Assembly (NCBI GenBank): GCA_017303935.1
Contig: JAFLBD010000001.1
Coordinates: forward strand, 248,001 to 312,000
Direction: 5' to 3'
From: Armatimonadota bacterium
GTDB lineage: Bacteria > Armatimonadota > Fimbriimonadia > Fimbriimonadales > Fimbriimonadaceae
Length of the DNA stretch: 64,000 nt
Every line of letters begins with the position of its first letter. The stretch's first letter is position 1. The position numbers and the translations under genes were made by a program. Of this stretch, positions 46,253 to 55,290 are shown piece after piece. The notes beneath the pieces were generated by a model. That model was not told the DNA's origin. It was given only the letters and a program-made list of their open reading frames with translations, and did no database searches.

Positions 46253-47479
46253 CTAAGTCAGTCGGCGGGCGGCGGCGGCAGCTTCTACAGCCGGGTACAT
46301 CTGTCGCATGCGCTCGGTGAGTGCCGGGATGAACGGGCTCATCGGGTACTTCTGATAGTACTCGTAGTAGAGGTTGTAAGCGGATTCGGGCTGGTTCAGC
46401 CACTGGTCATAATTCTGCGCCAACTGATACGTCGCGGTTTCCATTTCTGAATCTGGCACGTTGCTCATCTTGCGCACGCCTTCGAACAGAGTTCGCGCGG
46501 GGTGAACCTGGCTCTTCTTGACGAGTTCGTGACCAAGCCGGACGTAATCTCCTCGTGGAAGCGCGGTTGGATCCTTGCCGATCACTTGGATCGATGCTTT
46601 CGCCAAGGCGTCGAGCAGATTCGGATCGGCCAATATCGCTCGGAAGTGCTTTCGGAAGTGCGCGAGGTGCTCGGGCTTGACCATTTTCGATTCTTCGTAG
46701 GACCGAATCACGAGAGCAACCGCAACCTTGTGGTTGTCAGGCTGAGTTTTTGCCAGATCTTCGAGCTGCCGCTTCCAAAGCAGGGTGTAATCACCGCCTT
46801 CTGCAAGCGTCTTTTTGGCATCTGCGACGTAGGCGTCATCCCTCTTGGGTCGCATGATGAAGCAGAGAATAATCGCTGCGATCGCGCCGCCCAAGTGCGC
46901 CAGGTGAGCAGTGCCTCCGATCCCCACGAAGTTGAGCATCGCACCCAAGATGTCCCACGCGAAGTAGTAAAGCGCGGCGCCCCACATCGGCAATTCGATG
47001 GTAAATTCGCCCTGCGTCAGCCTGTAAAACGTGATGAAAACGAAGCAGACCGGCGCGTATGGGAACATGAACATGGCCGCCCCGACCACGCCCATGATTG
47101 CGCCACTCGCTCCGATCAACGGCATCGTTGTGATCTTGGTGCTCAGCAGGCCGAGGTGCGCGAGAGCACCGGCGAACCCTGCTATGGTGTAGAGCATAAG
47201 GAACTTGGGCGTGCGCAACCGCCCTTCGACCGCCGACCCAAAAATCCAAAGGAACAGCATGTTTCCGATGAGGTGCATCACATCGCCATGGAGAAACATC
47301 GACGTCAGAATCGTGATCGGCGACAGATTCAGAATCGACACGCCATGAGCCTCAGCCGTCGCCTTCGGAATCTCCATCTCTTGCTGAGTCGCGAAGAAAA
47401 TGATTGTGTTTAGCGCAATCAAGCTATAGGTTGCGATGGGCAGACTTTCGGGCGGATTCTTGACGCGGAACGGGATCAT
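46253..47479 (-). CDS. Rhomboid-family intramembrane serine protease with C-terminal tail
   Basis: The N-terminal ~230 residues form a rhomboid: Asn73 in LIGNMLFL, nucleophile Ser125 in GASGAIMG and His195 in AHLAHLGG. The remaining ~170 residues form a cytoplasmic helical region with TPR-like stretches (AYNLYYEYYQKYPMSPFIPALTERM). Substrates are unknown; the fusion to a soluble region suggests a regulatory or scaffold role. A promoter candidate (minus TTACAA, 16 bases, TAAGAT; 47518-47491) lies just upstream of the ATG. Confidence 0.85.
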   Translation of the reverse strand: MIPFRVKNPPESLPIATYSLIALNTIIFFATQQEMEIPKATAEAHGVSILNLSPITILTSMFLHGDVMHLIGNMLFLWIFGSAVEGRLRTPKFLMLYTIAGFAGALAHLGLLSTKITTMPLIGASGAIMGVVGAAMFMFPYAPVCFVFITFYRLTQGEFTIELPMWGAALYYFAWDILGAMLNFVGIGGTAHLAHLGGAIAAIILCFIMRPKRDDAYVADAKKTLAEGGDYTLLWKRQLEDLAKTQPDNHKVAVALVIRSYEESKMVKPEHLAHFRKHFRAILADPNLLDALAKASIQVIGKDPTALPRGDYVRLGHELVKKSQVHPARTLFEGVRKMSNVPDSEMETATYQLAQNYDQWLNQPESAYNLYYEYYQKYPMSPFIPALTERMRQMYPAVEAAAAARRLT

Positions 47480-51691: not shown

Positions 51692-53464
51692 ATGGTGCGC
51701 GTATTTGGGGAGGTTCGGGTCAATGGGGAATCGCTCGGACTTTCGAGCGCGAAGAAGCTGCTATTGCTCCTCGTCGTGAACCCCGGCAAACTGTGGCAGC
51801 GCGACCAGTTGTGTCGAATGATCTGGCCCTCAGAAAGCCCTGAAATCACTCGTAATCGATTGAGGACCGCGCTCGTTCAACTCAAAAAAGCGCTCGGAGA
51901 CGATGCCGAATGGGGTGGCGGAAAGCACGACTTATCGGTGCAACGGGGCTCAATAAGTTCGGATTTTGATGATGCGGTCGCGCTGAGAATCAAAATTGGA
52001 TTGACCATCGACCCAGCCGAGGAAGAAGCCCTTCTCGAACAACTCCTGAAGATAGTTGATCAGCCTTTGGCGAGCGATCTTCCCGATTTTGCCGCCGAAA
52101 AGCGATCGGAATGGATCAGTTATCGAACTGACGCTCTTCTGAAAATGGCGAATCATTGCCAGTCAAAACGCAAGCTTTCAGAGGCGATTACCCACGTCGA
52201 GCGAGCGCTTTCGCTTTCGCCAAACAGTGAAAAAATTTGGCGATCATTGCTCCAGCTAGGTGCAGAGTCGGGCGATCATGCGGACATCTATAAGCGGTTT
52301 GCCGCGGCCAAGGCTGAGCTGTGGAAGGAGTCGAATGCGAGATTCAGCGCTGAACTCGTTCAACTTGCGGATAATGTTCGGCGGCAACGCAATCTCGCGC
52401 CCACTCAAGACACCAATTTAGGCGGGCTACTTGGTCGCACTTTGGGGCGAATGTTGCAAGATTCGCCAGACCGAGCGATTGGCTTTCTCGGAAGCTCTGA
52501 GTTCAAAGTTGAGGTTTTTGATCACCCAAAGGAAGCGCTTGAGATTTTGACCCGCGCTCTCGACGCCACTACCGGATCGAATCCTGACCGGATGCAGTGC
52601 GCGGTTTACGCGATGATTGCCGGCACGGTGGGTGAGGTCGGTGATCGCATCGAAGATTTCGGCCACCAAGTTCTAGAGGGCGATTCTGATCCTGCACGTC
52701 TCCGAGCCGCTGCGACGATGCTTGGGAATATCTACTTCAATCAGGGTGATTCCGAACGATTTTCGCGGATGTGGCAGATCGCGCTCAAGTATGCCGAAGA
52801 AGCTGGAAACCCGGTCGGTATCGAAATCCTCTTGATCCAACGGGTGATCTTCTCTTGGCTCGCGGGTGAGGATCCGTTATCGATCCTTTCGGGCAAGCCT
52901 CACTGCGACCGATTGAGGGAATTTGATGAGCATAATGCGCATTCCGGCCGCGCGGTATTTCTGTCGTATTTGGGCACCGCTCTGGCTTGCGAGGGGAATT
53001 TTGAAGAAGCTATCCGCGCATTTAGCGAAGCCAATATTGAAGCGAATAAGGCATCACATTCTGAGGTTTTGATGTTGATCGATGCTCCGATGGGCCTCTG
53101 CAAAATCGGGATCGGAGAAGTCGATGAGGGCCTCCAATTGTTAGGCAGCGGCATTGCCGAACGATTCAGGATGGCATCGCAGCAGACCGCACTTTGGGGA
53201 TTACTCTTCGCAGCAATCTCGTTCGAACTGCTCGGCGAGAAACGAGATTGTGCTTCGCTCCTGACCGGAATTCAAAAAATCATCCAGCGCGCAACGTTCG
53301 AGCCAATGTTCAAATACTTGGTCGGGCGACTATCCAGCCGGATCGAGAATTATCCTGAGGATTCTTCGCAATTTGATTCAAAGAATCTGAAGACGCTCAC
53401 GACCGCAACGATGCACGCCATTGCTCGGTTGAGACAGGGCGCGCCGCACCGGTCAACTGGTTAG
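51692..53464 (+). CDS. BTAD (SARP-like) transcriptional regulator with TPR tail
   Basis: The first ~95 residues are an OmpR-type winged helix (FGEVRVNGESLGLSSAKKLLLLLVVNPGKLWQRDQLCRMIWPSESPEITRNRLRTALVQLKKAL), followed by the bacterial transcriptional activation domain (~residues 100-240: QRGSISSDFDDAVALRIKI..) and ~350 residues of helical, TPR-like repeats to the end. Unlike the AfsR family it has no NB-ARC ATPase. SARP-like regulators control operons in Actinobacteria; targets here are not visible. ATG is preceded by GGGAG. The stop shares TTAG with the convergent antiporter gene. Confidence 0.83.
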   Translation: MVRVFGEVRVNGESLGLSSAKKLLLLLVVNPGKLWQRDQLCRMIWPSESPEITRNRLRTALVQLKKALGDDAEWGGGKHDLSVQRGSISSDFDDAVALRIKIGLTIDPAEEEALLEQLLKIVDQPLASDLPDFAAEKRSEWISYRTDALLKMANHCQSKRKLSEAITHVERALSLSPNSEKIWRSLLQLGAESGDHADIYKRFAAAKAELWKESNARFSAELVQLADNVRRQRNLAPTQDTNLGGLLGRTLGRMLQDSPDRAIGFLGSSEFKVEVFDHPKEALEILTRALDATTGSNPDRMQCAVYAMIAGTVGEVGDRIEDFGHQVLEGDSDPARLRAAATMLGNIYFNQGDSERFSRMWQIALKYAEEAGNPVGIEILLIQRVIFSWLAGEDPLSILSGKPHCDRLREFDEHNAHSGRAVFLSYLGTALACEGNFEEAIRAFSEANIEANKASHSEVLMLIDAPMGLCKIGIGEVDEGLQLLGSGIAERFRMASQQTALWGLLFAAISFELLGEKRDCASLLTGIQKIIQRATFEPMFKYLVGRLSSRIENYPEDSSQFDSKNLKTLTTATMHAIARLRQGAPHRSTG

Positions 53465-54603
53465 CACGGCTCTGAATTCCTGCGCCGACAGATTCGGTCA
53501 GCAATGCCGAAGACCAGCGGGTTAACCGCGATCGAAATCGCTGCAGTGGCCAAAATGATGCTAACGAGGCTGGTCGGCACCAAGTTATAGCTGTAAGCCA
53601 TCTTGATCAAGACGAACGAAAACTCGCCGATCTGAGCGAGGCTCGCTGCGATAACAAGTCCAGTCCGTACCGAATACCCCAGGGCGAGCGTGATGCCATA
53701 TGCCGCGATGGATTTTCCAAAAATCACAATCCCAACTGCGGCCAGGATCGTGGTTGGGTGTTTGAGGAGCACTGCTGGGTCGAACATCATTCCGACTGCC
53801 ACGAAGAACAAAACAGTGAAAATCTCTTGAATAGGCAAGATGTGTTCGGTGGCTTTCTCGGACTGTGATGATTCGCTGAGCACGATCCCGGCAAAGAACG
53901 CCCCTAGGGCGGGTGAAACTCCAAACAGGCTCCACGCACCGAACGCAATTCCTAGCGCGATAGAAACAACCCCAACCGTGAACAATTCGCGAGATTGCGT
54001 CTTTTCGACACTCTTGAGCAGTGTTGGGAAGAGCTTTTTGCCGATGATGAGCATCAGCCCGACAAAGCAAGCCATCTTGGCTAGGTTCTCGAGAAGCGCG
54101 AGTGGTACGGACGGGTTCGCTCCAGGCTGGGGCGCAATCGTGCCCGATGCCATAGCGATGGCGGGGAGGATGACGAGGGCGGAAACCGCAACCAGGTCTT
54201 CTACTACCAGCCAACCAACCGCGATTCGCCCGTTGTCGCTCGTGACCTCATTTCGGTCGGTAAGTGCTCTAAGCAAAACCACCGTGCTCGCAATGGAAAG
54301 ACTCAATCCAAACACAAGTCCAGATGCCAGGCTCAGACCCCAAGACTGAATCGCAAACATTCCAAGCAAGCTGGCTACGAGAATCTGACAGATGGCGCCA
54401 GGTAGTGCCACCTTTCGAACAGACCAGAGATCCTTGATCGAAAAATGCAGCCCCACGCCAAACATCAAAAGGCTGACGCCGATTTCTGCGAGTTGCTGTG
54501 CGATTCCTGAATCGGCAACGATGCCTGGAGTGAAGGGGCCGATTGCCATTCCCGCGACGAGGTATCCGACCAGAGCAGGCAGGCGAAATCGGACCGCCAC
54601 CAA
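53461..54603 (-). CDS. Kef-type cation/proton antiporter (CPA2), 5' end uncertain
   Basis: The protein (380 residues from TTG 54603) exchanges K+ or Na+ for H+ in the inner membrane: LVGYLVAGMAIGPFTPG, GIAQQLAEIGVSLLMFGVGLHFS, SIASTVVLLRAL, ASLAQIGEFSFVLIKMAY are family blocks. Reading upstream, codons for EHDVSLIVTVAAGLALAFIFG continue in frame to 54669 without any ATG, GTG or TTG; homologs usually start with M-E-H-D. Here ATC 54667-54669 stands at the M position, so initiation at ATC, an alternative start, or a sequence error are options. There is no KTN domain at the C-terminus. Stop shared (TTAG) with the BTAD gene. Confidence 0.85.
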   Translation of the reverse strand: MVAVRFRLPALVGYLVAGMAIGPFTPGIVADSGIAQQLAEIGVSLLMFGVGLHFSIKDLWSVRKVALPGAICQILVASLLGMFAIQSWGLSLASGLVFGLSLSIASTVVLLRALTDRNEVTSDNGRIAVGWLVVEDLVAVSALVILPAIAMASGTIAPQPGANPSVPLALLENLAKMACFVGLMLIIGKKLFPTLLKSVEKTQSRELFTVGVVSIALGIAFGAWSLFGVSPALGAFFAGIVLSESSQSEKATEHILPIQEIFTVLFFVAVGMMFDPAVLLKHPTTILAAVGIVIFGKSIAAYGITLALGYSVRTGLVIAASLAQIGEFSFVLIKMAYSYNLVPTSLVSIILATAAISIAVNPLVFGIADRICRRRNSEPC

Positions 54604-54745
54604 CCCAAAAATGAAGGCAAGTGCAAGGCCAGCGGCGACCGTGACGATCAGGGAAACATCGTGTTCGATAGGTTCAGTCTACCGGTAAAAATCAGGTTCA
54701 TTTCATGTAACGCAATTCCGGGTAGGCCCAGAATTTCAATTTTAT

Positions 54746-54804
54746 GCAACCAAATGGTTGCCAATATCGAAATCATCGCGTATAATAAGCAACCTAAAGG
54801 TTGC
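54746..54804 (+). promoter_or_regulatory. Promoter and two ArsR-type operators of the SRPBCC-arsR operon
   Basis: Two identical palindromes GCAACC-N4-GGTTGC occur at 54746-54761 and 54789-54804, centres 43 bases apart. Between them is TTGCCA (54758-54763), 17 bases, TATAAT (54781-54786). The first overlaps the -35, the second covers the expected start point and includes the AAGG Shine-Dalgarno of ATG 54808. This geometry fits repression by the ArsR-type regulator encoded downstream. Confidence 0.78.
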
Positions 54805-54807
54805 ATT

Positions 54808-55290
54808 ATGGAAATTACAACTTCTGAAAACGAGATCACCGCGAAATTTACGACACGCGCATCGTCGCAACAAGTGTGGGCGTCATTGACGACGAAGGAT
54901 GGCTGGGAAGCTTGGTTTAGCGACCGCGTCGAGAGCGATTTCGTAGTCGGTAGTCCGCTGGAAATGTACTTCGAGGGCGAGGGGACAGTCACGGCGACGG
55001 TGACGGAGCGGGAGGAGCTGAAGTGCTTCGCCTATCGCTGGCATCCGGGTGAATCTGGTGAGAAACTCGCCATGCACCCCGACGAACAGACCACCGTGCG
55101 GTTCACTCTGGTTGAAAATGATGGCCAAGTGGAACTGACCATGACCGAGTTTGGATTCGAGCGAATTCCTGCAGAGCGACGCCCAAAGGCGTTTGCTGAC
55201 AATCAAGGCGGATGGAAGTATATGATCGAACAGTTCGAAGCATGGACCGAATCTGGCGTGCGACAGGCGAACTCGAAAGGGAAGGACTAA
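54808..55290 (+). CDS. SRPBCC (AHSA1-like) domain protein
   Basis: The 160-residue protein is an activator of Hsp90 ATPase-like START/Bet v1 domain: TTRASSQQVWASLTTKDGWEAWFSDRVE, VTATVTEREELKCFAYRWHPG, VRFTLVENDGQVELTMTEFGFER and GGWKYMIEQFEAW. It has a hydrophobic cavity and may bind a small ligand. The pairing with an ArsR-family regulator is widespread. The start is ATG 54808; an earlier in-frame extension to 54661 runs through the promoter and is rejected. Confidence 0.85.
   Translation: MEITTSENEITAKFTTRASSQQVWASLTTKDGWEAWFSDRVESDFVVGSPLEMYFEGEGTVTATVTEREELKCFAYRWHPGESGEKLAMHPDEQTTVRFTLVENDGQVELTMTEFGFERIPAERRPKAFADNQGGWKYMIEQFEAWTESGVRQANSKGKD

Follow-up and report, generated by a model that had tools for sequence, protein, structure and literature searches.

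How is the short operon for an SRPBCC protein and an ArsR-family regulator controlled, and which protein reads the two identical palindromes at its promoter? The question arises at positions 54,746 to 54,804 of a 64,000-nucleotide stretch of an Armatimonadota genome (contig JAFLBD010000001.1; the whole stretch is called the window below), where two perfect copies of GCAACC-N4-GGTTGC, hereafter operator 1 and operator 2, precede the two genes. An earlier reading of the letters alone (the original prediction) took these palindromes for the operators of the ArsR protein, and both were found exactly where it had placed them, at 54746-54761 and 54789-54804. We consider, with a probability of about 0.9, that negative autoregulation controls this SRPBCC-ArsR operon, in which a dimer of its own ArsR would occupy each palindrome. 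Comparison with other genomes also pointed to a relation between the recognition helix of ArsR proteins and the outer bases of their operators.

Operators and promoter

The promoter between the palindromes, TTGCCA-17-TATAAT, has 11 of the 12 consensus bases; no other sigma70-like match lies in the 300-bp region 54600-54900. Operator 2 begins 2 bp past the -10 hexamer and stops 3 bp short of the ATG of the SRPBCC gene (54808), and thus it spans the expected transcription start and the Shine-Dalgarno-like AAAGG. The placement of the palindromes over the -35 hexamer and over the start and ribosome-binding region therefore held, as did their distance of 43 bp, measured from start to start. A palindromic operator overlapping the promoter of its own operon, the arrangement by which autoregulated operons are recognized, is thus present here, and it is conserved in relatives.

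GCAACC-N4-GGTTGC occurs twice in the 2.56-Mb genome, both times at this promoter, and the reversed pattern used as a control occurs once. Looser single sites, that is GCAAC-N6-GTTGC with at most one mismatch, number 145 genome-wide against 106 for the control, which is near background. Perfect 10-base sites elsewhere in the genome lie mostly within long open reading frames (ORFs); two such sites in short ORFs (L049 and L051) have no SRPBCC or ArsR gene nearby, and a near-match at 46722 falls within ORFs. Because the 12-base palindrome is found only here and the other sites are near background or inside ORFs, two perfect palindromes 43 bp apart are not a product of chance. A wider regulon in this genome was considered and rejected, there being no further perfect 12-base sites.

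In the genome-wide search that the original prediction had proposed, only this promoter has the perfect sites, and a second, paralogous SRPBCC-ArsR operon of the same genome (L178; G000:C3, about 417080-417890) has a one-mismatch site, GCAACATTTTTATTGC. As the ArsR of that operon belongs to the RQ class described below, cross-talk between the two ArsRs of the genome is possible.

Tandem operators in other genomes

Among 60 relatives, the genome with the best ArsR match (56-57% identity) has two perfect GCAACC-N4-GGTTGC palindromes, 41 bp apart, upstream of an SRPBCC-SRPBCC-ArsR arrangement; in other relatives, SRPBCC-ArsR pairs are preceded by a single GCAAC-N6-GTTGC palindrome or by two. The predicted motif is exact at the locus, but relatives conserve only GCAAC of each arm, around a centre of 6 bp; a C/G at the sixth position is frequent among them but dispensable.

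A search of genome contigs with the single ArsR protein gave no match, and the DNA tandem pattern was used in its place (two GCAAC-N6-GTTGC palindromes with a centre spacing of 27-57 bp, with the reversed pattern as the control). In 291 genomes of the same phylum, the tandem pair was found in 10 and the reversed control in none. In nine of these 10 genomes the pair immediately precedes SRPBCC and/or ArsR genes; the match in the tenth (L042) comes from a repeat unrelated to the operator. Applied to GTDB genomes, the scan gave at least 80 loci from about ten phyla, the phyla being taken from the titles of the records. Among the matches listed, the tandem pair is upstream of ArsR and/or SRPBCC genes in 64 of 80 loci with a strict search window, and in 80 of 89, the nine loci from the same phylum included, when ORFs overlapping the operators were allowed. 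The operator sequence itself, beyond the pairing of its arms, is kept across phyla, and the cross-phylum tandem signature finds SRPBCC-ArsR operons from DNA alone.

Two side observations came from these scans. The repeat GCAACCTGAAGGTTGCGGCTAC and its variants mimic the operator in L042 and L125, away from ArsR and SRPBCC genes, and similar palindromes occur in L075. In another locus (L034; G132:C2), a tandem GCAAC operator (1501-1557 of the locus) stands before an SRPBCC gene without an adjacent arsR, which suggests regulation in trans.

Recognition helix and outer bases of the half-site

All 58 aligned ArsRs beside tandem GCAAC sites (that of the locus and 57 others) have an [ST]RQ start of the recognition helix, with R41 and Q42 invariant. 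In the family and order of the locus, GCAAC palindromes precede 11 of 17 ArsRs with an RQ helix and none of 58 others (Fisher p 2.5e-9). Beside ArsRs with other helices, the palindromes keep this geometry (xxAAC-N6-GTTxx) but differ in their outer bases. In the same family and order, LTG helices occur with TGAAC, QPA with ATAAC, LAA/FAA with TCAAC and LPA/MPA-type helices with TTAAC, against a background of 0.004 such palindromes per 320 bp. Other phyla add RP with GT and LQ with TC, and single cases of RT with GA and QQ with AC.

In the resulting code, residue 2 of [ST]-x2-x3 is assigned G for R, A for Q and T for L, M or V, and residue 3 is assigned C for Q or A, T for P and G for T. The code was fixed in advance and then scored on genomes whose ArsRs had not entered the earlier survey. 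These fresh genomes contained 111 distinct ArsRs, 43 of them with a palindrome and 37 scorable. Both outer bases were right in 36 of the 37, and in 17 of 18 when the RQ class was left out, many RQ loci among the fresh genomes having been picked on GCAAC. In a combined test of 75 ArsR/palindrome pairs, from which loci selected on GCAAC had been removed, 72 pairs fit one dinucleotide per residue pair (shuffle mean 31, maximum 40). Close relatives switch helix and operator together: proteins up to 71% identical outside the helix have TT with LP/MP helices but AT with QP helices, and QQ with AC and QP with AT differ in the same way at about 57% identity. For distant proteins (<30% identity), the dinucleotide agrees in 33 of 34 comparisons when the residue pair is the same, and in 6 of 831 when it differs.

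It is likely, in our judgement, that ArsR autoregulators obey a simple and largely separable code, with operators of the form X-Y-AAC-N6-GTT-Y'-X', and that the RQ class is a widespread cross-phylum SRPBCC-ArsR module. The contacts of Arg to G and of Gln to A are classical, and at the locus the prediction is that R41 and Q42 determine the outer GC of the GCAAC half-site. For FA helices, which occur with either TC or AC, the assignment is ambiguous. Only palindromes with an AAC core count in the test, and about 60% of the ArsRs from the fresh genomes had none; thus the code covers part of the ArsR family. In the surveyed loci, ArsRs with LPS and QPQ/QPT helices, and many with LPA and QPA helices, have no xxAAC-N6-GTTxx palindrome and may use another core or spacing.

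SRPBCC-ArsR operons are widespread, and the locus supplies their operator and promoter logic, in which each core element is embedded in or abuts an operator, often with the Shine-Dalgarno sequence within operator 2. No paper on an SRPBCC-ArsR operator or on a general ArsR recognition code was found in the open-licence literature. The locus itself belongs to a known kind of system; of greater interest is the recognition code that emerged from the comparison. If the code is true, operators and regulon members of many uncharacterised ArsRs would be predictable from the protein sequence alone; if the rule of two residues and two bases is true, biosensors built on ArsR proteins could be given new targets by exchanging two residues.

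Proposed regulation and alternative explanations

We propose that one dimer of the operon's own ArsR would bind each GCAAC-N6-GTTGC palindrome, where the outer GC of each half-site would be read by R41 and Q42, at the beginning of alpha4, and the shared AAC core by residues common to the group. The dimer on operator 1 would mask the -35 hexamer, and that on operator 2 would adjoin the -10 hexamer and cover the region of transcription start and ribosome binding. With RNA polymerase thus excluded, both SRPBCC and ArsR would stay low until a signal frees the repressor. What we infer from the sequences is that the ArsR binds and represses, that each palindrome takes one dimer and that a ligand induces the operon. 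The tandem operators across phyla and the covariation of helix and half-site strongly support, in silico, the operator and the autoregulation that the original prediction had assigned to the ArsR.

Several points weigh against this proposal. Six of the 17 RQ-helix ArsRs in the family are without a perfect site, five of these six having a one-mismatch site. The helix and the operator are both inherited, so that the counts above are not independent; switches within clades, LP/MP versus QP in proteins that mostly share 57-71% of their residues outside the helix, lessen this dependence and do not remove it. Derepression by a ligand is assumed. An activating role would also be compatible with the sequence, although the positions of the operators over -35 and +1 argue against activation.

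As the case for autoregulation comes from sequence comparison, and as tandem sites also precede some SRPBCC genes that have no arsR next to them (L034), a protein other than the neighbouring ArsR might be the binder. A regulator encoded elsewhere is nevertheless very improbable, because the half-site covaries with the recognition helix of the neighbouring ArsR, which is not expected with another binder. We give equally little credence to the view that operator 2 acts mainly as an RNA hairpin hiding the Shine-Dalgarno sequence, or as a terminator of the opposite strand. RNA begun before operator 2 can fold such a hairpin (-9.5 kcal/mol, z -1.07), and the minus strand bears a weak resemblance to a terminator; however, a start at about 54793 cuts the left arm and leaves no stable hairpin (-2.7 kcal/mol), operator 1 has the same arms and yet lies upstream of the transcript, and what is conserved across phyla is the sequence and not pairing alone.

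The 43-bp distance had been read in the original prediction as about four helical turns, which would allow looping or two dimers on one face of the DNA. Among the matches listed, the centre spacing in relatives runs from 27 to 52 bp, with peaks at 33 and 41-42 bp and many loci at 43-47 bp; 33 bp is frequent in actinobacteria and 43-47 bp elsewhere. In the usual 41-bp layout, TTGCxx at the end of operator 1 is followed by 17 bp, an AT-rich -10 hexamer such as TATAAT and, without a gap, operator 2. The 43 bp at the locus are this layout with 2 extra bases between the -10 hexamer and operator 2. A Shine-Dalgarno tetramer lies within operator 2 in 40 of the 80 loci and within operator 1 in 12; GCAACCAGGAGGTTGC is the commonest operator 2 form bearing it (12 of 80). 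Contact between two ArsR dimers on one side of the helix, or a DNA loop between them over four turns, would fit the commonest spacing of 41-42 bp (28 of 80 oriented loci) and the dimer-dimer stabilisation proposed for adjacent ArsR sites (PMC6555750). We nevertheless think a functional 43-bp distance unlikely: the range of spacings has no 10.5-bp period, the 41-bp class is accounted for by TTGCxx-17-TATAAT with the -10 hexamer abutting operator 2, and looping across about 40 bp is physically unlikely. Since 33 bp and 43-47 bp are both common, no single helical phase is kept, and helical phasing or looping as the cause of the 43 bp was rejected on this distribution. The spacing appears mostly to follow promoter geometry, and two dimers that each mask one core promoter element are a simpler reading than looping.

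Comparison with known regulators

The nearest described system is Rv2034 of M. tuberculosis, an ArsR-type autorepressor with a footprinted palindrome, CCGTAAGT-N4-ACTTACGG, which is co-expressed with the Polyketide_cyc2-domain gene Rv2035 in the operon Rv2034-Rv2035-Rv2036 and whose DNA binding is not inhibited by zinc or four other metals (PMC3338718). It resembles the present locus in combining an ArsR autorepressor with an SRPBCC-type gene in one operon and in the geometry of its palindrome (GTAAG-N6-CTTAC). It differs in the half-site (GTAAG instead of GCAAC), in having one palindrome near the start codon instead of two, and in the ArsR gene being first. Its helix, which we take to be SRPAVSQHL, would predict outer GT, as in its GTAAG half-site. 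A search for Rv2034-type sites in four mycobacterial and Gordonia genomes gave no match.

The best PDB match of the RQ-class profile is 2OQG, an ArsR-like regulator of Rhodococcus sp. RHA1 (E 1.3e-25), compared here as a deposited structure alone. Its helix starts VSRQAIAKHL, with the same RQ, and it is therefore predicted to bind GCAAC-N6-GTTGC. The metal sensors SmtB, CzrA and E. coli ArsR share the winged-helix fold and the alpha4 recognition helix. Tandem dimer sites like those of the locus are known in smt (S2/S1 and S4/S3), whereas metal-sensor operators have been described as imperfect 12-2-12 repeats (PMC6555750). At the start of alpha4, Gln56 of NolR (Sinorhizobium) makes a base-specific contact to A/T, and a contact of Lys50 of RexT (Nostoc) to G has been proposed (PMC8960804). 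Both contacts are in line with the code, Gln56 being matched to position 41 by its location in the helix and not by residue alignment. The operators of NolR and RexT are unlike those of the locus, with (A/T)TTAG-N9-A(T/A) and ATTCG-N15-CGAAT, respectively.

Genes of the operon

The features of the locus are collected in Table 1. Profile matches bear out the two gene products named in the original prediction: the first belongs to the AHSA1 branch of the SRPBCC superfamily (PF08327, 49.7 bits, cut-off 22.1) and the second to the ArsR family (PF12840, 28.5 bits, cut-off 27; NF033788, 58.4 bits, cut-off 55). The arsR gene starts with TTG, 1 nt past the SRPBCC stop codon, and translational coupling of the two genes is probable.

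Table 1. Positions of the operators, promoter elements and genes in the window
Feature	Position	Strand	Description
Operator 1	54746..54761		Perfect 16-mer palindrome GCAACCAAATGGTTGC; right arm overlaps the -35 hexamer; conserved in relatives
Operator 2	54789..54804		Perfect 16-mer palindrome GCAACCTAAAGGTTGC; spans the expected transcription start and Shine-Dalgarno-like AAAGG
-35 hexamer TTGCCA	54758..54763	+	Embedded in the end of operator 1; relatives alike
-10 hexamer TATAAT	54781..54786	+	17-bp spacer; in relatives an AT-rich hexamer abuts operator 2
Shine-Dalgarno-like AAAGG	54796..54800	+	7 nt before ATG, within operator 2; direct reading
SRPBCC / AHSA1-domain protein, 160 aa	54808..55290	+	PF08327, E=5.4e-13
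ArsR-family winged-helix regulator, 111 aa	55292..55627	+	PF12840, NF033788; AlphaFold2 pLDDT 92; PDB matches 3f6o, 2oqg
Recognition helix alpha4 codons	55412..55450	+	ArsR residues 41-53, RQAAAKHILVLER

The AlphaFold2 model of the ArsR, built on an alignment of 56 ArsRs, has a predicted local distance difference test score (pLDDT) of 92.4; an alignment-free model (pLDDT 58) was not used. It has the winged-helix fold, with alpha4 at residues 41-53 and the beta wing at 57-70, and places R41 and Q42 at the N-terminus of alpha4. The structures that Foldseek ranks highest for the model belong to ArsR proteins, among them NolR in complex with DNA. Cys3 is the only cysteine of the protein, and none of the positions in 58 aligned relatives has a conserved cysteine; the cysteine metal site of the metal-sensing ArsR/SmtB subgroup (e.g. 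CVCDLC) is thus absent, and cysteine-based sensing of metal or redox state is unlikely, although a metal site made of other residues may be present. As the aligned ArsRs have no conserved cysteine, the inducer may possibly be an organic molecule related to the SRPBCC ligand rather than a metal.

A divergent gene for a YbaL/KefB-like cation:proton antiporter lies on the minus strand at 53461-54669 and has no in-frame ATG, GTG or TTG before 54603. Its N-terminal sequence, IEHDVSLIVTVAAGLALAFIFG, and a family-model match from model position 23 place the start near an ATC codon at 54669-54667, which would imply an uncommon start codon or an error in the sequence.
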